Source: Opitutus sp. GAS368
GTDB lineage: Bacteria > Verrucomicrobiota > Verrucomicrobiia > Opitutales > Opitutaceae
Assembly: GCA_945871085.1 (NCBI GenBank)
Contig: CAMBVX010000018.1
Span: 1-39,738, forward strand
Reading direction: 5' to 3'
Length of the DNA: 39,738 nucleotides
The notes under the pieces were generated by a model that was not told the DNA's origin, searched no databases, and was given only the letters and a program-made list of their open reading frames with translations. Position 1 is the first letter of the stretch; each line of letters opens with the position of its first letter. The position numbers were made by a program, and so were the translations under genes. Positions 23,139 to 37,776 of the stretch are shown here, one piece after another.

Positions 23139-23825
23139 ATGACCCTGACTCCTGCTGAAATCATTCGTTTGAATAGCGAATTGCGCGCCAAGTCTCCCCT
23201 CGAGGTGGTCCGCTGGGCCGTCGCCCAACCCGGCGCTCGCGCGATCGTTTCGACGAATTTCCGGCCCTACGAAGCCGCGATCTTACACCTCGCGGTGCAG
23301 GCTCAGGCGGACATTCCTGTGCTCTGGGTCGACCACGGCTACAACCGTCCTGCGACCTACAAGCATGCGGAGGAGTTGAAGGCGCGCCTGAAACTTAATC
23401 TCAAGCCCTACCTGCCGCGCGTGACCGCCGCCCACCGCGATGCGATTTACGGACCGATTCCGACCACCGAGGACGAGGAGGGTCTGAAGAAATTCAGTGC
23501 CGTGATGAAGCTCGAGCCCTTCCAACGCGGCATGAAGGAACTCGCACCGACGGTGTGGATCACGGCGCTGCGCAAGGTTCAGAATCCAAATCGCGCAGGC
23601 CTCGACATCGTGTCACTCGACGAAAATTTCGGTGCCCTCAAGGTCAGTCCGCTCTTCTACTCCAGCGACGCCGAGCTCGACGCCTACCTCGCACAGCACA
23701 ACTTGCCCAACGAATGGGATTACTTCGATCCCGCCAAGGCCGACGAGAAGCGCGAGTGCGGGCTACATGCCGCTTGGGGTAAAACCGCAGCGCACAGCGC
23801 TGCGGTTTCGGAGTCTGGGGTTTAG
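23139..23825 (+). CDS. cysH: Phosphoadenylyl-sulfate reductase family protein
   Basis: Length is 228 aa. It reduces (phospho)adenylyl sulfate to sulfite with thioredoxin or glutaredoxin. The catalytic ECGLH motif is at 206-210. Earlier blocks fit the family (ARAIVSTNFRPYEAAILHLA, IPVLWVDHGYNRPATYKHAE, WITALRKVQNPNRAG). The CC...CxxC cysteines of APS reductases are absent, which favours PAPS as substrate. The residues after ECGLHAAW (GKTAAHSAAVSESGV) are encoded by a hairpin and the beginning of a heptamer array, so the natural C-terminus has probably been extended by an insertion. It heads the plus-strand sulfur operon. Confidence 0.92.
   Translation: MTLTPAEIIRLNSELRAKSPLEVVRWAVAQPGARAIVSTNFRPYEAAILHLAVQAQADIPVLWVDHGYNRPATYKHAEELKARLKLNLKPYLPRVTAAHRDAIYGPIPTTEDEEGLKKFSAVMKLEPFQRGMKELAPTVWITALRKVQNPNRAGLDIVSLDENFGALKVSPLFYSSDAELDAYLAQHNLPNEWDYFDPAKADEKRECGLHAAWGKTAAHSAAVSESGV
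23782..23808. repeat. Perfect hairpin at the 3' end of cysH
   Basis: A 12-bp perfect stem AAACCGCAGCGC / GCGCTGCGGTTT has a 3-nt loop. It lies within the last codons of cysH, directly before the heptamer array that flanks the four-helix-bundle gene. No T-run follows, so it is more likely a repeat boundary or mRNA-stabilising element than a terminator. Confidence 0.8.
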
Positions 23826-23844
23826 GATCAAGGGTCTCGGATTT
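23810..23844 (+). repeat. Left heptamer array flanking the four-helix-bundle gene
   Basis: Five units in exact period 7: GGAGTCT, GGGGTTT, AGGATCA, AGGGTCT, CGGATTT. The array begins within the cysH C-terminal codons and ends directly at the ATG (23845) of the inserted gene. It aligns, inverted, with the right array at 24205-24246, with roughly 29 matches over 35 positions by eye when two gaps are allowed. Confidence 0.8.
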
Positions 23845-24207
23845 ATGGGCGAACCATTTGAAAATACGGAGGCGTGGAAGTCGGCGCGGGCGCTGACGAA
23901 CGCCGTCTACTCGCATTGCCGCCGCGAGCAGTTATCTGGCGACTTCGGCTTACGTGATCAGCTCCAACGCGCCGCTGTTTCCGTGATGAACAACAGAGCC
24001 GAAGGTTGGGCGAGTTTGCACCTGCTGGAGAAGCGCCAGGCTTATAACATCGCCCGCCGTTCGTGTGGCGAGGTGCGTTCGATGACCAACGTGCTCGTGG
24101 ACAACCAGTATGTCACCCCAACTGAGCAGGCCGCGTTGTTGGCGCTTTGCCTCCATGCGGGAAAACTCATCACCGGCCTCATTCGGTCCCTCGACGCTCG
24201 TGCCTGA
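23845..24207 (+). CDS. Four-helix-bundle protein (23S rRNA intervening-sequence protein family)
   Basis: Length is 120 aa. The pattern PFENTEAWKSARALTNAVYS, then GDFGLRDQLQRAAVSVMNNRAEG, then RQAYNIARRSCGEVRSM is that of the IVP/S23 four-helix-bundle family (TIGR02436). Members occur in rRNA intervening sequences and as stand-alone genes, some related to retroelement accessory proteins. Its function is unknown; nucleic-acid binding is suspected. The gene has no sulfur-metabolism role and splits cysH from cysD, with heptamer arrays of opposite orientation touching its start and stop codons. This marks it as an inserted cassette. No Shine-Dalgarno is visible, since the array runs up to the ATG. 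Confidence 0.9.
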   Translation: MGEPFENTEAWKSARALTNAVYSHCRREQLSGDFGLRDQLQRAAVSVMNNRAEGWASLHLLEKRQAYNIARRSCGEVRSMTNVLVDNQYVTPTEQAALLALCLHAGKLITGLIRSLDARA

Positions 24208-24246
24208 ATCCAGACCCAGAGCCTAGACCCCAGACCCTATTTATTT
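24205..24246 (-). repeat. Right heptamer array flanking the four-helix-bundle gene
   Basis: Period-7 units on the plus strand: TGAATCC, AGACCCA, GAGCCTA, GACCCCA, GACCCTA. The TGA stop of the inserted gene is the beginning of the array. The array is the inverted counterpart of the left array (AGACCC here, GGGTCT there) and ends a few bases before the cysD ATG at 24251, replacing any normal ribosome-binding site. Confidence 0.8.
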
Positions 24247-24250
24247 TCCG

Positions 24251-25153
24251 ATGTCTTCCTACCATCTCGACCATCTTCAGCATCTCGAAACCGAGGCCAT
24301 CCACATTATGCGGGAGGTCGCGGGCGAATTTGAGCGGCCCGCGCTGCTCTTCTCGGGCGGAAAGGATTCCATCTGCCTCCTGCGCCTGGCGGAGAAAGCG
24401 TTTCGCCCGTCGGACCTGCCGACGCCCTTGCTCAACGTGGATACGGGCCACCACTTTCCCGAGCTCAATGAATTCCGCGACCGCCGCGCGAAGCAACTCG
24501 GGGCGAAGCTGATCGTGCGCACCGTCGAGGACGCGATTGCGAAAGGGATCGCCCAGCCCGCCCCGGGCGAGATCAGCCGCAACCGTCTGCAAATCCCCAC
24601 ACTGCTGGCGGCGATCGAGGAGTTTCGTTTCGACTGCTGCATCGGCGGCGCGCGGCGCGACGAAGAAAAGGCCCGCGCCAAGGAGCGCTTCTTTAGTTTC
24701 CGTGACAGCTTTGGCCAATGGGATCCGAAAAATCAGCGCCCGGAAATCTGGAATCTTTACAACGGTCGATTGAATCAGGGCGAAAACATGCGCGTTTTCC
24801 CGATCAGCAACTGGACCGAGATGGACGTGTGGGAATACATCCAACGCGAGCAGCTCGAAGTCCCGAGCATCTATTTCAGTCACAAACGCCAGTGCGTGCG
24901 TCGCGGCGGCCAGTGGCTGCCGGTCAACACGCTCGTGCCGCCCAAGGCCAATGAGGACGTGCGCGAGCTCGTCGTGCGCGTCCGTACCATCGGCGACATT
25001 ATCAGCACCGGCTGCGTAGAATCTCCCGCGACCACGACGGCCGATATCATTGCGGAAATCGCGGCGGCGCGGGTGACCGAGCGCGGCTCACGCGCCGACG
25101 ACAAGTCCTCCGAAGCCGCGATGGAAGACCGGAAAAAAGCCGGATATTTCTGA
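24251..25153 (+). CDS. cysD: Sulfate adenylyltransferase subunit 2
   Basis: Length is 300 aa. With CysN it makes adenylyl sulfate (APS) from sulfate and ATP. The PP-loop SGGKDS is at 35-40. Family blocks follow: LLNVDTGHHFPELNEFRDRR, CCIGGARRDEEKARAKERFFSF, PEIWNLYNGRLNQGENMRVFPISNWTE, SIYFSHKRQCVRRGGQW and DIISTGCVESPA, ending AMEDRKKAGYF as in typical CysD. Length and motifs are normal. The leader is an AT-rich tail of the heptamer array, without an evident Shine-Dalgarno. cysN starts 19 bp downstream. Confidence 0.97.
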   Translation: MSSYHLDHLQHLETEAIHIMREVAGEFERPALLFSGGKDSICLLRLAEKAFRPSDLPTPLLNVDTGHHFPELNEFRDRRAKQLGAKLIVRTVEDAIAKGIAQPAPGEISRNRLQIPTLLAAIEEFRFDCCIGGARRDEEKARAKERFFSFRDSFGQWDPKNQRPEIWNLYNGRLNQGENMRVFPISNWTEMDVWEYIQREQLEVPSIYFSHKRQCVRRGGQWLPVNTLVPPKANEDVRELVVRVRTIGDIISTGCVESPATTTADIIAEIAAARVTERGSRADDKSSEAAMEDRKKAGYF

Positions 25154-29227: not shown

Positions 29228-29262
29228 AACGCTCAACGTTCAACGCCCAACGCTCAACGCTC
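29228..29262 (+). repeat. Intergenic heptamer array, AACGYYC type
   Basis: Five perfect-phase 7-nt units: AACGCTC, AACGTTC, AACGCCC, AACGCTC, AACGCTC. The same type occurs, degenerate and on the other strand, inside coding sequence at 33106-33129 and 34801-34835. Confidence 0.9.
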
Positions 29263-29278
29263 AAGTTTCGACCGCTTT

Positions 29279-30198: not shown

Positions 30199-32467
30199 CC
30201 AAGCGTGCGACGGCGACGGCGCAGGCTTTGTAGCTGGGCTGGCGCGAGTGCGGGTCGAAGGACGGGAAGGTGAGTTTGTTCACGGTGCCGAAGTGCATCG
30301 GGAGGAAAATTTGGCCGGGCTGCACGGTGGGCGTGACGAGGGCGATGGCTGCGGCGGTGCCGCGACGGGAACGGACCGTCACGCGGTCGCCGGGGGAAAT
30401 GCCGAGGCGGGTGGCGTCTTCGGGATTGATTTCGGCGGTGAGGACCGTGGGCGCGAGTTTGCGGAGGACGGCGCTTTTGTCGGTGCGGGAGCCGGTGTGC
30501 CATTGCGCGGAGGAGCCGCGGCCGGTGAGCAAAATGAACGGGTAGTCGCCGTCGGGCGGCTCCGGCATGGGGCGCGGGGCGTCGAAGAGGAAGCGGGCGC
30601 GGGCGTCGGGAGTAAAAAATTTTCCGTCGGCAAAGAGGCGGCGCTGCTGCGCGGGAAGTTGAGAGGTGAGAGCCGAGAGCTGAGCGTCGGAAAGAGTCGG
30701 CTTGGTGGCGCTCGCCGCTACGGGGGAGTCGGCGTAGGGCCATTGGATGCCGCCGGATTCGGCGATGTGGGCGTAGTCGCGGATGCCCGTGAAATCGCAG
30801 GGTTGGCCGGCGGAGAGTTTTTTTAGGATTTGGAAGGTGGTCTCGGGCGAGCACCACTCCCGGAAGAGGTCGCCGCAGCCCCAGGCTTCGGCGACGAGTT
30901 TGAAGATGGCGAAATCGCTGAGGGCTTGGCCCGGGGCGCGGGAGACTTTTTTCGCGAGGGCGAGGCGGCGCTCGCTGTTGATGAGAATTCCTTCCTTCTC
31001 ACCCCAGCCGGCGGCAGGGAAAACGAGGTCCGCGAGTTGGGCGGTCTCGGTCGTGGCATACATGTCTTGCACGACAAGGAAATCGAGTTGGGCGAGGAGG
31101 TCGCGGGCGCGGTTTTGGTTGATCCACGAGTGCGCGGTGTTGGTGGCGATGACCCAGAGGCCGCGGATCTCGCCGCGTTCGATGGCGTCCAAAATTTGGT
31201 CATACGCGTAGCCGGAGTGGTCGGGAATGAGCGCGACGTCGAGGCCGAGGGTGGCGGCGACGTGGGCGCGATGGGCGGGGTTGGTGGTGTCGTAGCCGCC
31301 GAGGAGGGACGTGGCGTTGCCAAACAGGCGCGAGCCCATGGCGTTGCACTGGCCGGTGATGGAGTTGGCGCCGGTGCCGGGCCGGCCGATGTTACCGGTC
31401 ATCAACGCGAGATTGATGATGGCTTGCGCGGTGCGCGTGGCTTCGTGGCTCTGGTTGACGCCCATGGTCCACCAGAAAGACACGCGTTCGCGGGTGGCGA
31501 TGATGTCGACGAGGCGGTGGAGCGTGGCAACGGAGACGCCGGTTTCCGCGGTGGTGTGAGCGGCGGTGAACGTCGCGACGAAGGCGGCGAAGGCTTCGTA
31601 GTTGGAGGTGTGCGCGGCGATGAAGGCGGGTTTCACGGCACCGCGGGCGATGAGGAGATGGGCGAGGCCGTAGAGGAACGTGAGGTCGGATTTCGGACGG
31701 AGCGCGACGTGGAGCGTGGCGGCTTGCGCGGTCTCGGTGGCGCGCGGATCGACGACGACGATCTCGGGCGAGCGGCGGTTCATCATCACGCGTTGCCACA
31801 TGATGGGGTGGGCGATGCAGGGATTCGCGCCGATGAAAATGAGGGCGTCGCTCTCTTCAAAATCGGCGTAGGTGAAGGGCGGAGCGTCGAAGCCGAAGGA
31901 CTGTTTGTAGGCGACGTGGGAGGTGGCCATGCACTGGCGGGTGTTGCTGTCGCAGTGGAGCGCGCCCAGGCCGAATTTGAAGAGCGCGCCGAGCAGGGCC
32001 ATTTCTTCGGTCATGATCTGGCCGGTGCTGAGGAACGCGATGGAGTGGGGACCGTGTTTTTGTTGGATGGATTTGAAGCGATCGGTGAAGACAGCGAGGG
32101 CGGTGGGCCAATTGACGGGCGCGAGCGGGGTGCCGCGGGACGGGCGGAGGAGCGGGGTGGTGGCGCGGTCGGGGGCGGCGAGGGGGGTGAGGGCTTCCCA
32201 GCCTTTGGGGCAGGCCATGCCGAGATTGACGGGGTAGTCGGGGTCGGCGGAGAGGTTGATGGCTTGGCCCTCGGCATCGAGGTGGACGCGGAGCGAACAG
32301 CCGGTGCTGCAAAAGCCGCAGACGGTGTTGGTGGTCGCGACGGGAGCAAGGCGGGCGGGGACGCGGCCGAGACCGAGGTCGAAGGCGGCGGGGTGTTGCA
32401 CGAGCTCGGTCGTCATCGGACCGGTGCGGGCGTGGAGGAGATTTTCGAGGGCGGCGGGAGTTTTCAT
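30194..32467 (-). CDS. nasA: Assimilatory nitrate reductase catalytic subunit (molybdopterin)
   Basis: Length is 757 aa. It reduces nitrate to nitrite with a bis-MGD molybdenum centre. [4Fe-4S] ligands Cys50, Cys53, Cys57 and Cys86 lie in VCGFCSTGC and MACPKGWE. Further family blocks: [66 protein letters not shown] and a C-terminal MGD domain ([31 protein letters not shown]). No signal peptide, so it is cytoplasmic. The start at 32467 overlaps the upstream gene by 4 bp (ATGA). It lacks the second C-terminal cluster domain of longer NasA forms. Two repeat-derived segments (residues about 582-591 and 594-603) lie in frame before the C-terminal domain. Its TAG stop comes from a palindromic repeat. 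Confidence 0.94.
30661..30688 (+). repeat. Heptamer array inside nasA (GAGAGCT type)
   Basis: Four units in period 7: GAGAGGT, GAGAGCC, GAGAGCT, GAGCGTC. On the coding strand they encode the Ser/Leu/Gln-rich stretch around [10 protein letters not shown] (nasA residues about 594-603), in a variable linker. Confidence 0.78.
30697..30724. repeat. 28-bp dispersed repeat inside nasA, copy A
   Basis: The sequence starting TCGGCTTGGTGGCGCTCGCC matches 37566-37593 in nirA at 26 of 28 positions. On the coding strand it encodes [10 protein letters not shown] (about residues 582-591). Both copies lie in the same reading frame in otherwise unrelated proteins. Confidence 0.85.
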
Positions 32468-33999
32468 GCGGCGGGTAGGCCGGGCATTTTTGGGGAGTCG
32501 ACCGCGCGGAAGAAGAGGTAACGTTCGGCGAGTTCGCCAGTGAGGAGGAGCGGGAGTGTAACCCAATAGGTTACAAATTGCGGGGCGGCGGCGAGGAGGA
32601 CAATGGTGGCGAGGGCGAGGAGAACGCGGGTGAGAACGGCGCGGGCGAGGGGGCCGCGGAAGAGGCGCGAGGACGTGGCACCGTGAAAAAATGGGCGCGA
32701 CTCCCAGGCGAGTTTGAGGAGAAGGGCGAGGGCGGCGGCGCGAGGGGCGAGGGGAGCGAGGGCGACTACGGCGGCGGTGCCGAAGAAGCGCGGCGCGGTT
32801 TGTGCAAAGCGCCAAAATTCACGGCGCGTATCGACGTAGATCATCACGGAGCAGTAGAGGCCGAGGAGGCCGGTCGCCGCGGCGGCGACCGGCAAGGTCC
32901 AATGACCAAGGCCCAACGACCAATCAAGGAGGGGGATGGTGGCGGTGAGGGCGAACCATGGGCCGAAGACGAGGGCTTCGCGGCTCAGCCAGCTCTTGCG
33001 CCAGCCGAGAAAAATGCGCCAGGCGCGGAGCGGTTGGCCGAGATGGAAGAGGCTGGCGAAGAGACCGAGGCCGCCGAGCGCGGCCGCCGCGCTCGGCAGC
33101 CAGTGGAAGTTGAACGTTGAGCGTTGAAGGTCGGCGGCGGAGAGGAGCTGGGCGAGTTGGAGGCCGACGGCGGCGGGGAGGAGCGTGAGCATCACGACGA
33201 GCGGCCAGTGGGCGGGTTGGGGGCGGAGCGTCGTGGCGTCGGCGTGGGCGAGGTTCCGGGGGAGTTTTTTGGCGGTGACGTAGCGGGTTGTGGGCTGCGT
33301 ATAGGCGGGGTCGGGGGCGGTGGGGAGGAAGGATGAGGTGAGCGGAGAGTTGAGAGCTGAGAGCTGAGGGGCGGAAGTGAAGACGGTGACGATTTTGATG
33401 GCGGACGTGGGGCAGGCTTGGACGCAGGCGGGGGCTTCACCTTCGGCGAGACGGCTGTGGCACATGTCGCACTTGCGGATGATGCCGAGGCGTTCGTTGT
33501 ATTTCGGGACATCATACGGGCACTTGAGCACGCAGTATTGGCAGCCGATGCATTGATCATCGAGGTGGCGGACAATGCCGGTGAGCGGATCTTTTTCGTA
33601 GGCGAGGACGGGGCAGCCGTGCAGGCAGGCGGGATCGGCGCAGTGGTGGCAGGCGGTCGTGACGGTTTGGGAAAAGGGGTGGGCGCGGTCGCCGCCGACG
33701 AGGAGGCCGACGTCGCGCCACGTTTCTTGGTCGTCGAGGCCGTTGAGGGAGTGGCAGGCGGAGACGCAGGATTTGCAGCCGGTGCAGGAGTCGAGCTCGA
33801 CTTCGAACGCGTATTGTTCGCCGGGGCGGGGTTGGGTGAGGGGGATCAGAGAACGGAAATTTACGATTTCAGATTTATGATTCTTGATTTGCTCGAACGA
33901 TTGGCTCGCGTGGGCGACGGGGGTTTGCAGGCGCGATTGCTCGGCGAGGAGTTCGGCGATGAGGGCGAGGGTGGACTGCTTTTGTTTCGGAGCGACCAT
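32464..33999 (-). CDS. Fused DmsB-type ferredoxin / DmsC-type membrane anchor
   Basis: Length is 511 aa. The N-terminal half (about 60-205) is a four-cluster ferredoxin of the DmsB type: [11 protein letters not shown] (72-82), [14 protein letters not shown] (117-130), [12 protein letters not shown] (150-161) and CDMCHSRL...CVQACP (177-197). The C-terminal half (about 262-500) is a polytopic membrane domain of the DmsC/anchor type ([38 protein letters not shown]). Fusion of electron-transfer and quinol-side subunits suggests that the menaquinol pool supplies electrons to NasA, whose gene overlaps by 4 bp. The Ser/Leu/Pro-rich linker at about 206-225 and other spots (37-48, 291-298) are encoded by heptamer arrays. 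An alternative is a partner of another oxidoreductase, but the operon argues for nitrate. Confidence 0.9.
33106..33129 (-). repeat. Heptamer array inside the ferredoxin/anchor gene (AACGTTC type)
   Basis: Units on the plus strand GAACGTT, GAGCGTT, GAAG..., with a shortened first unit. It encodes QRSTFNFH (residues 291-298) in a loop between the first two membrane helices of the anchor domain. Confidence 0.7.
33333..33367 (+). repeat. Heptamer array in the ferredoxin-anchor linker (GAGAGCT type)
   Basis: Period-7 units ATGAGGT, GAGCGGA, GAGTTGA, GAGCTGA, GAGCTGA. They encode [13 protein letters not shown] (residues about 211-223), exactly between the ferredoxin and membrane domains. Confidence 0.82.
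33856..33890 (+). repeat. Heptamer array near the N-terminus of the ferredoxin/anchor gene (GATTT type)
   Basis: Units ACGATTT, CAGATTT, ATGATTC, TTGATTT in period 7 encode [12 protein letters not shown] (residues about 37-48), ahead of the first ferredoxin cysteines. The AT-rich composition stands out from the GC-rich gene. Confidence 0.8.
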
Positions 34000-35917: not shown

Positions 35918-37776
35918 TGGCTGAGAATTTCCTGGAGCTCTTTCACGGAGTGGCGGCGGGCCCACGTGACGAAGGATTCGCCGCGTTTTTTTTGGGCTTC
36001 GTAGGTGATCAGAATTTTTTCGGACAGGGCGTTGATCTCGGTGGCGCGGAGGCCGCGGAAGAGTTCGCGGGCGATGCCTTGCTCTTGGTCCATGCCACCG
36101 CCGAGGACGAGGTGGTAGCCGTCGGCGCCGTCGGGGAGTTGGTGGCCGACGAAACCGAGATCGCCGCAGTAGTGTTGCGCGCAGGAGTTGGGGCAACCGG
36201 TGAAGTGGATGTTCACCGGCGAGGTAAGTGTGGTGTGTTGGCCGAGGTGTTGCAGGAGCGAGAGGCCCTGGGCCTTGGTGTCGGCGGCGGCGAATTTGCA
36301 GCCGCGGCGGCCGGTGCAGGCGATGATGCCGCCGGCGGCGAGCGAGGCTTCATAAAAACAGCCGAGGCGGACGACCGAGCGTTTTACGGTTTCGACAAAG
36401 GCGTCGGCGACGTGAGGGATGATGACGCTTTGCCAGACGGTGAGGCGGAGTTCGCCGGTGCCGAAATGGGTGGCGAGGTCGGCAAGCGTGTGGAGTTGCT
36501 TCGAGGAGAGGCGACCGACGGGGACGCCGATGCCGAGACTGTTGAGGCCGCGCTGCGACTGACGGGCGGGGCCGAGCCAGCCGTGTTTGATGACGGGGCG
36601 GCGCGGCTCGCAGGCGGCGAGGGGCAGGCGAACGAGAGGGAAGGCGAGTTTTTTTTGGGTTTCGGCGAGGAATTTATCGACGCCCCATTTTTCGAGCAGG
36701 TATTTGAGGCGGGCTTTTTTGCGGTTGGTGCGGTCGCCGTTTTCGGCGAAGACGCGGAGCATGGCGGCGGAGACGGCGACGGCTTCGGCGGGTTGGATGA
36801 GGAGTCCGGTGTCGCGGGCGAAATCGCCGTGGCCGGTGATGCCGCCGAGGTGGATGCGGAAATACACGCCCGCAGCGGGCGGAGTTGAGCGCGGAGAGCT
36901 GAGAGCTGAGAGTTCGGAAGCGGAGAGCGGAGATTTGAGATTTGAGAGAGAGGCGGCGGTGACCCTCGTCGCGAAGAAGCCGATGTCGTTGGTGTCGACG
37001 GCGGCGGAGAGGCTGCCGCCGTTGTCGAAGGCGATGTTAAATTTTCGCGGCAGGCCGTAGAGGTCGCGGTGATTCAGGATGTAGTGGTGAATCCCTTTCG
37101 CGAACGGGCGGACGTCGATGAGTTCAGCGGGATCGAAGCCGCTGTTGGGCGAGGCGGTGACGTTGCGGACGTTGTCGCAACCGGCACCGCGCGAGGCGAG
37201 GCCCAGTTCTTGAATACGCGTGAGAACTTGGACGATGGAGCGGGGCTTGAATTCGCGGATCTGGAAATTTCCGCGCGTCGTGAGGTCGACGAAGCCGTTG
37301 CCGAGATTCGTCGCGAGTTGGGCGAGGCCGTGGCATTGCGCGGCCGTGATTTCGCAGGCCGGGACGCGGATGCGGAGCATAAAGCTGTCCTGCGCGGGGG
37401 CGACGTAGAAGAGGCCGTGGAATTTGAAACGGTAGAGGTTTTCGGGGTCGGGGGCCTGGTCGGCGTCGGCGTGCGCGAGGAGGCGTTCCCACGCGTCGAG
37501 GGGATTCTCTTCGTATTTCCAACGTTCCTCTTTGCAGAGGTCACCGAGGGGGGTGCCATGGAAGGTCGGCTCGCTGGCGCTCGCCGCTACGGGTGCAGCA
37601 AGATTCGGCGTGGTGGAGGCGGAGGCGGAAGCGGTGAGCTGGCCGGTGGAAGTCGTGCCGACGAAGACGCCGCTGGCGGCGACCCCAGCCATGAAGCCGG
37701 CGAGGTATTCCTTCTGCCCCGGCGTGAAGGGCTGAGGCAGGGAGGCGGAGGAGGCTGTGGCGGACGCGACGGACAC
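35914..37776 (-). CDS. nirA: NirA-type assimilatory nitrite reductase
   Basis: Length is 620 aa, GTG start. It reduces nitrite to ammonium with siroheme and a [4Fe-4S] cluster. Ligands are Cys487 and Cys493 (CTGRRGC) and Cys528 and Cys532 (CPNSC). Family blocks: FMLRIRVPACEITAAQCHGL, DLTTRGNFQIREF, NVRNVTASPNSGFDPAELID, LPRKFNIAFDNGG, HLGGITGHGDFARDTGLL and TNRKKARLKYLLEKWG. The N-terminus PFTPGQKEYLAGFMAGVAASG matches that of the adjacent flavoprotein and may be a docking segment. Residues 62-71 (PVAASASEPT) and 276-299 are repeat-derived inserts. It is the first gene of the minus-strand nitrate operon; siroheme would come from the cobA/cbiX operon. Confidence 0.93.
   Translation of the reverse strand: MSVASATASSASLPQPFTPGQKEYLAGFMAGVAASGVFVGTTSTGQLTASASASTTPNLAAPVAASASEPTFHGTPLGDLCKEERWKYEENPLDAWERLLAHADADQAPDPENLYRFKFHGLFYVAPAQDSFMLRIRVPACEITAAQCHGLAQLATNLGNGFVDLTTRGNFQIREFKPRSIVQVLTRIQELGLASRGAGCDNVRNVTASPNSGFDPAELIDVRPFAKGIHHYILNHRDLYGLPRKFNIAFDNGGSLSAAVDTNDIGFFATRVTAASLSNLKSPLSASELSALSSPRSTPPAAGVYFRIHLGGITGHGDFARDTGLLIQPAEAVAVSAAMLRVFAENGDRTNRKKARLKYLLEKWGVDKFLAETQKKLAFPLVRLPLAACEPRRPVIKHGWLGPARQSQRGLNSLGIGVPVGRLSSKQLHTLADLATHFGTGELRLTVWQSVIIPHVADAFVETVKRSVVRLGCFYEASLAAGGIIACTGRRGCKFAAADTKAQGLSLLQHLGQHTTLTSPVNIHFTGCPNSCAQHYCGDLGFVGHQLPDGADGYHLVLGGGMDQEQGIARELFRGLRATEINALSEKILITYEAQKKRGESFVTWARRHSVKELQEILSQ
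36882..36951 (+). repeat. Ten-unit mixed heptamer array inside nirA
   Basis: Ten consecutive units in unbroken period 7: GAGTTGA, GCGCGGA, GAGCTGA (x2), GAGTTCG, GAAGCGG, AGAGCGG, AGATTTG (x2), AGAGAGA. Both the GAGAGCT and the GATTTGA types are joined in one array. It encodes about 24 residues (276-299) including LSNLKSPLS and SELSALSSP, a loop inserted between FFATRV and GVYFRIHLGG. Confidence 0.85.
37566..37593. repeat. 28-bp dispersed repeat inside nirA, copy B
   Basis: The sequence starting TCGGCTCGCTGGCGCTCGCC differs from 30697-30724 (nasA) at two of 28 positions. It encodes PVAASASEPT (residues 62-71), in a linker between the N-terminal motif and the catalytic body of NirA. Confidence 0.85.

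Follow-up and report, generated by a model that had tools for sequence, protein, structure and literature searches.

Heptamer arrays enclosing an IVP-family gene in a sulfate-activation operon of Opitutus, and their possible place in a dispersed-repeat system shared with other bacteria

Genes of the IVP (S23, four-helix-bundle) family are on record in rRNA (PMC4990558; PMC11270868) and in cas loci (PMC3936711). In the 23S rRNA intervening sequence (IVS) of Coxiella, as described in passages of PMC4990558, tandem heptamers directly precede the S23p open reading frame (ORF) inside a stem cut by RNase III. In a second described system, REPIN-RAYT, a repeat that stands beside a resident gene is dispersed as inverted doublets and singlets, and separate repeat groups are tied to separate proteins within one genome (PMC3116915, in the sections available). 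Heptameric simple sequence repeats (SSRs) are also known, for example GGGAATC in Xanthomonas, with 70–75 convergent close pairs (PMC4692102), and TAACTGA in Beggiatoaceae (PMC4679880), each according to parts of its source. Here, we analysed a 39,738-nt stretch of Opitutus sp. GAS368 (Verrucomicrobiota; the window, contig C18 of a 7.37 Mb assembly of 630 contigs), in which an IVP gene lies between cysH and cysD and is enclosed by two inverted arrays of GGGTCTG-type heptamers. Comparison with IVP loci of many phyla suggests that the orphan IVP family and the long-unexplained seven-letter repeats form one system.

A reading of the letters alone (the sequence-only reading) had placed an IVP gene between cysH and cysD, and the ORF coordinates (Table 1) and the profile match of its 120-aa product to PF05635 (E 9.9e-23, 80.8 bits against a cut-off of 33.8) confirm this; the protein also reached 79.3 bits against TIGR02436, whose cut-off is 24. 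The left array, with units GGAGTCT, GGGGTTT, AGGATCA, AGGGTCT and CGGATTT, ends exactly at the ATG as proposed, while a few bases separate the right array from the TGA, at which it had been proposed to start (24210–24237 by Tandem Repeats Finder, period 7, 4.1 copies). The cysH stop codon (23823–23825) falls within the left array, and the C-terminus of the cysH product is unlike that of relatives with an empty site. That the two arrays are inverted copies was likewise upheld: the arms at 23813–23829 and 24219–24235 are complementary at 88% over 17 nt, and the gapped arm alignment score of 16 was matched by only 2 of 2000 shuffles that preserve dinucleotides. Of lags 3–12, lag 7 gave the highest identity on both sides, 0.61 on the left and 0.50 on the right. 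Directly before the left array stands a perfect inverted repeat which, by eye, is absent from the printed congeneric sequences.

Table 1 Features of the cysH–cysD region and the other heptamer arrays of the window
Feature	Position	Strand	Basis or remark
cysH (PAPS/APS, i.e. phosphoadenylyl sulfate/adenylyl sulfate, reductase)	23139..23825	+	stop codon inside left array
Perfect 12-bp inverted repeat, 3-nt loop, cysH 3′ end	23782..23808		repeat search
Left heptamer array, five GGGTCTG-type units	23810..23844	+	ends at ATG
IVP / S23 / four-helix-bundle gene, 120 aa, Avd-like fold	23845..24207	+	profile, model, fold search
Right heptamer array, inverted copy of left	24208..24238	-	GGGTCTG on minus strand
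cysD (sulfate adenylyltransferase subunit 2)	24251..25153	+	profile, ORF
Solo array AACGCTC, without IVP and lacking an inverted partner within 1 kb	29228..29264		period scan, Tandem Repeats Finder
Solo array TGAGAGC	30657..30684		period scan
Solo array TGAGAGC	33337..33368		period scan
Solo array GAGAGCT / GAGATTT	36887..36947		period scan

The enclosure is not peculiar to the cys locus. IVP loci were pooled from relatives, from many phyla (the best 80 of 544, a set that therefore leans towards the query subfamily), from the phylum (100 of 145 genomes matched) and from multi-IVP genomes (38 more); the duplicates L066, L171, L176 and L198 were removed, and so was L003, which is the same locus as L006. 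With an alignment score of at least 12 counted as mirrored arms, 151 of the 179 IVP loci with usable flanks had them, 113 together with a period-7 array. Within the same loci (those under 3000 bases left out), mirrored arms flanked 113 of 134 IVP genes (84.3%) but only 10 of 166 other small ORFs picked by a longest-ORF heuristic (6.0%), and mirrored arms with a period-7 or period-8 array flanked 92 of 134 against 3 of 166. The arms of one locus paired in mirrored orientation in 119 of 141 cases (one of 142 loci, with a flank under 80 nt, was removed) and in direct orientation in 32, whereas arms from mismatched loci paired in 7.0% and an offset control in 3.4% of 529. In the all-phyla set, period-7 arrays stood on the left in 44, on the right in 47 and on both sides in 36 of 79 loci, compared with 3.6% of control windows. 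The figures for lag 8 were 10, 10 and 7, and lags 6 and 9 gave 6 and 7 on the left, slightly over control; apart from lags 7 and 8, a both-sided array occurred in at most one of the 79. Mainly period-8 arrays were noted in 21 of the 179 loci (L026, L166, L167, L172 and 17 more). Ten IVP loci came from plasmids (nine cyanobacterial and one of Riemerella); those of Nostoc edaphicum, Nostoc C052, Nostoc 53789 c, Calothrix and Riemerella had arm scores of at least 20, Picosynechococcus scored 17 and Trichormus 12.

Five PF05635 genes were found in the window genome and all five have mirrored arms, so that the refuting case named in the sequence-only reading, other IVP genes of the genome lacking such arrays, did not arise. 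Their repeats are GAACAGA, GGGTCTG, GAAAGCA, AATGTCT and a purine-rich period-8 unit: paralogs carry different heptamers, and several such IVPs coexist within one genome. Behind this diversity there is a common form, N-R-G-N-N-N-N, with A (0.64) or G (0.22) at position 2 and G (0.80) at position 3, and G exceeds C in 80 coding-strand left arrays and falls below it in 10. Similarity between heptamers rises with identity between the proteins, from about 0.38 below 50% identity to 0.48 at 50–60%, 0.64 at 60–80% and 0.85 above 80% (111 loci; two of 113 were left out for a stop or a short match). A partial Mantel test with G+C content controlled gave r 0.110, a value reached in none of 1000 permutations. 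The heptamer CAGTTTT is even common to IVPs of Neisseriaceae and Verrucomicrobia at 63% protein identity, that is, across phyla. The covariation shows heptamer and gene travelling together.

The heptamer of the resident gene also recurs elsewhere in the genome. Matches were counted as overlapping 21-mers, the flanks of the IVP gene itself included. Three units of GGGTCTG with at most two mismatches were found in 6 of 57 relatives, all of this genus (17 matches in the window genome G000, covering the cassette and about ten sites, 5 in G004, 4 each in G001 and G003, and 2 each in G002 and G008), and in none of G005–G007 or the other genera. We took 151 genomes of the Xanthomonadales, the order of Dokdonella, as a second sample; PF05635 was present in 52 of them, and 42 IVP flanks were read from 41 of the 52. 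Four heptamers read from IVP flanks were each found, as three units, in 2–8 of the 151 genomes, always including the source: GGCGAAT in two (source G225 with 46 matches, then G248 with 5, whose own IVP is also flanked by GGCGAAT), ACGGGAG in four (source G299 first with 55), GAGGGCT in eight (G238 with 187, then source G252 with 41) and CGGGGCA in six (G266 with 427, G259 with 38, G230 with 20 and, fourth, source G211 with 16). The repeat of the resident gene is thus a dispersed repeat of its genome in the five systems tested, GGGTCTG and these four. The two IVPs read in G238 have flanks of AGGGCCC and ACGTTTT type.

The known Xanthomonas repeat behaves similarly. A GGGA[A/T]TC left array stands at eight IVPs (G191, G212, G232, G260, G261, G280, G301 and G341), and dispersed GGGAATC occurs in seven of these eight genomes. 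In the other six GGGAATC genomes with an IVP, the single flank read differs; three of them (G251, G259 and G266) hold further IVPs. Three units of GGGAATC were found in 16 of the 151 genomes, and an IVP was detected in 13 of the 16 against 39 of the other 135 (p 7e-5); for five patterns pooled, with the four source genomes excluded, an IVP was present in 20 of the 26 genomes that bear arrays and in 28 of the other 121 (p 4e-7), although both Fisher p-values overstate the association because the genomes are related and relatedness was left uncontrolled. Reversed patterns gave 2 matches in total for GGGAATC, 13 for GGCGAAT, 31 for GAGGGCT and 4 for ACGGGAG, with none of the last three in its own source genome; for GGGTCTG and CGGGGCA this control is not independent, their reversals being rotations of themselves. 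In Verrucomicrobiota, 20 stretches of 20 kb held 15 arrays in 6 of 10 IVP genomes, nine of them in G013, and 20 stretches from the IVP-less group (two from each of nine genomes, one each from G054 and G015) held 2 arrays in 1 of 11 genomes. This higher array density in IVP genomes is suggestive only; G013 and G021 (with IVP) and G040 and G015 (IVP-less) were classed by protein search and the others by profile search.

Away from the IVP gene, many arrays keep the mirrored layout. Among 23 arrays from 40 arbitrary 20-kb stretches and the window, nine had a mirrored partner within 1 kb, against 7.0% in random stretches, and none of the nine pairs encloses an IVP gene. Six of eight fetched sites in G225 are convergent pairs (a GGCGAAT array, 40–111 nt, then an ATTCGCC array) and two are single; three of the eight were chosen since both strands were already listed, and pairs make up three of the other five. 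Both gene-less sites fetched from G248 are pairs as well. Read along either strand, all eight gene-less pairs begin with the G-rich unit, the same as at the IVP gene. Their outer edges, which may be eroded, share words of 2–5 nt with no fixed length, and since the loops are unrelated and no clear target-site duplication was seen, the pairs are not copies of one mini-transposon. For 70 IVPs of 18 genomes (part of each set), the nearest relative lies in another genome in 64 cases, and 113 within-genome pairs had a median identity of 35% and a highest of 67%. Judged from these comparisons, it is apparently the arrays that multiply and not the IVP gene.

The cysH–cysD gap was compared among relatives, cysD being detected in 47 of 57 of them and 30 loci being read; none was detected in G004. 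The gap without the cassette, for which the sequence-only reading had suggested a search of related genomes, was found in four of the same genus (G005, G006, G007 and G002), where it is short and has neither array nor IVP gene. Three others (G001, G003 and G008) have a gap of about 200 nt with GGGTCTG-type sequence on the left, CCAGAC on the right and no IVP gene; the left sequence scores as an array in G003 and G001 and is degenerate in G008. Their interiors show a short C-terminal resemblance to the IVP gene by eye, which tblastn did not find significant. Most simply, these gaps would mean that arrays and gene came to this site together and that the gene can be lost. Of the mobile cassette proposed from the letters, the part that stands is an array–gene–array unit absent from four congeners, and the part that falls is a simple mobile cassette, its copies being divergent and gene-less arrays many. 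IVP genes also lie just downstream of cysD in G023, G028 and G039 (for example G039:C26:36082-36342), and in G032 and G030 the space between cysD and cysN holds mirrored arrays, of AATGTCC or TTGGTCA type, without a gene. The gaps beside cysD may be a hot spot (for IVP genes in G000, G023, G028 and G039, for gene-less arrays in G030 and G032; loci including L049, L058, L056 and L057), an impression that ascertainment may inflate because the query was the IVP of the cys operon itself.

The structure model of the window protein (mean predicted local distance difference test, pLDDT, 96.9) had 2GSC as its best match in a fold search, with XCC0516 at a template modelling (TM) score of 0.85 and BT_0352 also matched. 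Avd of a diversity-generating retroelement (DGR; 4DWL) reached TM 0.80 on the query and was weaker by E-value. Good matches to the model were S23 and Avd proteins only, with no known nuclease fold among them. Seven residues are invariant in 45 sequences (S46, N50, A52, E53, G54, S73 and E76). The relative XCC0516 is a pentamer (PMC4990558, in the part covering that protein). Searches of PADLOC-DB for anti-phage defence families with three IVPs, and of a phage collection with one IVP query, gave no match.

How does the unit compare with the described systems? It shares with the 23S rRNA IVS of Coxiella and Leptospira the protein family and an ORF in the loop of a terminal-inverted-repeat stem, and the Coxiella heptamer, as far as PMC4990558 gives it, rotates to CAGATGA and so fits the N-R-G-N-N-N-N form. 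Unlike that IVS, the cys cassette lies between protein genes and outside any 23S rRNA gene; Rfam gave no match in the window, and rRNA was equally unmatched there and at 14 additional loci, which include the 11 array-less ones. IVP cassettes moreover have heptamers on both sides that are linked to the protein and dispersed without the gene, and their excision as RNA is no more than possible. With REPIN-RAYT the IVP system shares a resident gene with its own repeat, present as inverted doublets and singlets. It differs in that the repeat is a heptamer array and not a palindromic REP (repetitive extragenic palindrome), that the loops are unrelated in the cases read, and that the protein is an Avd-like four-helix bundle and not a tyrosine transposase. 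The REP-associated tyrosine transposase has an HUH fold. The likeness to Avd extends to weak NF033474 matches in two of three IVPs scanned (29.2 and 17.9 bits), but these fall below the Avd cut-off of 80 bits, and the window protein had no NF033474 match at E 0.01. The heptameric SSRs (GGGAATC in Xanthomonas, GGGGATT in Nostoc, TAACTGA in Beggiatoaceae) are the same kind of array as the IVP flanks; in the parts of the literature at hand they are, however, taken as SSRs or G-quadruplex candidates (Xanthomonas, Nostoc) or as possible regulator sites (Beggiatoaceae). The text of PMC4692102 has no occurrence of 'xcc0516', 'intervening' or 'four helix', and that of PMC4679880 none of 'intervening', 'four helix' or 's23', so neither links its repeats to IVP. 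On the other strand, the Beggiatoaceae TAACTGA printed in PMC4679880 rotates to CAGTTAT, which fits N-R-G-N-N-N-N. In the portions at hand of the open-licence literature, which leaves most subscription journals and bioRxiv outside, an IVP ORF and heptamers appear together only in the Coxiella IVS, that element alone. By the tests made, the protein is a PF05635 member, and the unit lacks a defining feature of each of rRNA IVS, REPIN-RAYT and DGR, is unproven as a transposon and works most like REPIN-RAYT.

Taken together, we consider it fairly probable that IVP proteins and heptamer arrays are one dispersed-repeat system, REPIN-RAYT-like in action and built on an Avd-fold protein. Its resident form would be an IVP gene whose coding region has convergent arrays of a private heptamer set close on both sides, 5′-(NRGNNNN)n-ORF-(reverse complement)n-3′; its other form would be arrays of that heptamer at other places in the genome, numerous and without a gene, single or as convergent pairs round short unrelated loops. 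We infer that the protein binds its own heptamer, as single strand or hairpin, and that the copying, extension or homogenisation of arrays may depend on it. The chemistry would probably be performed by host replication or repair enzymes, because the fold search returned no known nuclease fold. The repeats would spread selfishly, and the gene would stay single-copy, handed down by descent or acquired laterally. The rRNA IVS may be a cassette of this type that came to sit within a 23S gene, since the Coxiella heptamers directly precede the S23p ORF in the RNase III stem. Whether IVP/S23 proteins are in general the trans-acting factors of bacteria-wide selfish heptamer arrays, each reading its own heptamer and driving array birth, extension or copying, we regard as evenly balanced. 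If so, they would account for much of the bacterial heptamer excess and for the intervening sequences in rRNA, and a repeat-spreading system would be added that uses neither usual transposase fold but a pentameric Avd-fold protein without known nuclease, with a heptamer-reading code derivable from sequence. Two puzzles would thereby be joined, the role of S23/IVP proteins, whose structure was solved in 2006, and the excess of seven-letter tandem repeats in bacterial genomes. For each IVP, the explanation predicts from sequence the heptamer that should be recognised.

A number of observations weigh against this explanation or limit its evidence. At the cys locus, the best lag-7 score was 9.4 on the right and 6.0 on the left, where the array is degenerate and under the threshold of 9, so that the case there rests on arm pairing and on the family-wide pattern. 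Mirrored arms at threshold are missing from 28 of the 179 IVP loci, 11 of which have no array at all; at the Pseudanabaena plasmid locus, the long arrays left and right of the gene do not mirror each other (score 7), and at those of Nostoc 53789 a and Aulosira an array scores on the left side alone. Arrays and gene are also found apart: an IVP was undetected in 6 of 30 array-bearing Xanthomonadales (G221, G239, G245, G267, G291 and G310), the Verrucomicrobiota genome G012 has arrays and no IVP, and G002 has GGGTCTG matches yet an empty cysH–cysD site. For two of the four Xanthomonadales sources, other genomes hold more of the repeat than the source does, GAGGGCT and CGGGGCA being commoner elsewhere. 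In the window genome, ten GGGTCTG sites were fetched and all nine that score as arrays are single, and the loops of the eight gene-less pairs of G225 and G248 are mutually unrelated. The sequence-only reading had tied the IVP family to the other arrays of the window, but the four solo arrays there, one of AACGCTC and three of TGAGAGC type, have heptamers that occur at none of the five IVP flanks read in the window genome. For proteins less than 50% identical, the heptamers are no more alike than background, so the covariation speaks for travelling together and not yet for a protein reading its heptamer; it may reflect linkage alone. The relatedness of the genomes compared, given above with the p-values, counts on the same side.

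It is rather doubtful, and could in any case hold alongside a dispersed-repeat system, that the cassette is an RNA-level intervening sequence, whose arms pair in the polycistronic transcript and whose stem is cut by RNase III, which would remove or split off the IVP segment and let operons tolerate the insert, as in the 23S rRNA IVS. That the transcript could fold with the gene in the loop, as had been suggested, was confirmed in silico: the cassette folded with its arms paired at z -4.08, none of 100 shuffles being as stable, whereas the IVP ORF alone gave z +0.68. The neighbours of IVP genes, called by the longest-ORF heuristic, are mostly codirectional (94 ++, 18 +-, 12 -+ and 5 -- among 129), and RNase III cuts the Coxiella IVS in its heptamer-holding stem (PMC4990558, in the passages cited above). 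However, mismatches between arms showed no excess of sense-strand G.U (140 G.U against 187 A.C) and hence no sign of selection on an mRNA stem, a candidate that was set aside; the suggested processing of the cassette out of the cys mRNA is not supported by these counts. Private heptamers and their gene-less dispersal would be left unexplained, and one cassette (L256, on a cyanobacterial plasmid) stands antisense between two ribonucleotide reductase genes. RNA excision of the cassette is possible but unsupported.

We think it unlikely that IVP is a host regulator that binds RNA or DNA, its own arrays being autoregulatory and the dispersed arrays marking a regulon. The arrays do abut the ORF, the right one beginning a median of 6.5 nt past the stop codon, and MacGregor proposed that TAACTGA heptamers upstream of start codons play a part in translation (PMC4679880, in the part concerned). 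A regulon is harder to see in heptamers that differ between paralogs and among the IVPs of one genome, in dispersed sites that are convergent pairs round unrelated loops, and in a unit that is absent from congeners.

Quite improbable, in our judgement, is a classic DNA transposon with IVP as transposase and the arrays as terminal inverted repeats. Terminal inverted arrays and empty sites would suit it, as would the arms of some loci, which are identical to each other down to their irregular units (L137, L111 and L110). Yet no near-identical IVPs were present among those compared within genomes, no clear target-site duplication was seen in the eight gene-less pairs, the modelled fold brought up no known nuclease among good matches, and gene-less copies share arrays and not interiors. 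Gene-copying transposition as the main mode was rejected on the divergence of the within-genome IVPs compared (part of each genome's set) and on these interiors. Very improbable, and already hard to reconcile with the data, is the account by which heptamers arise from replication slippage with IVP genes merely nearby, for although a heptamer excess in bacterial SSRs and its explanation by slippage are on record (PMC4692102, PMC4679880, in the parts at hand) and some genomes have arrays without IVP, enclosure by mirrored arrays is typical of IVP and rare at other small ORFs, one heptamer occupies both arms, exactly even in the irregular units just mentioned, and the heptamer follows closely related proteins and the genome.

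Some minor observations concern the arrays and the settings of IVP genes. In the window, a lag scan at threshold 14 gave three segments at lag 7, one each at lags 13 and 14 and none at lags 4–6, 8–12 or 15, which makes 7 the over-represented lag there. A GAGCTGA-type IVP flank is present in G128, a genome of the same family (L196). The GGGAATC array in G232:C1 (L372 175-601) is 427 nt long where the fetched sequence ends. Three IVP genes (L157, L200 and L201), each with a different heptamer, lie within about 4.2 kb at G185:C10:99681-103815. On cyanobacterial plasmids, one IVP gene (L261) separates cas10 from a cmr3-family gene within a type III-B CRISPR operon, and another (L262) lies between cas6 and cas4.

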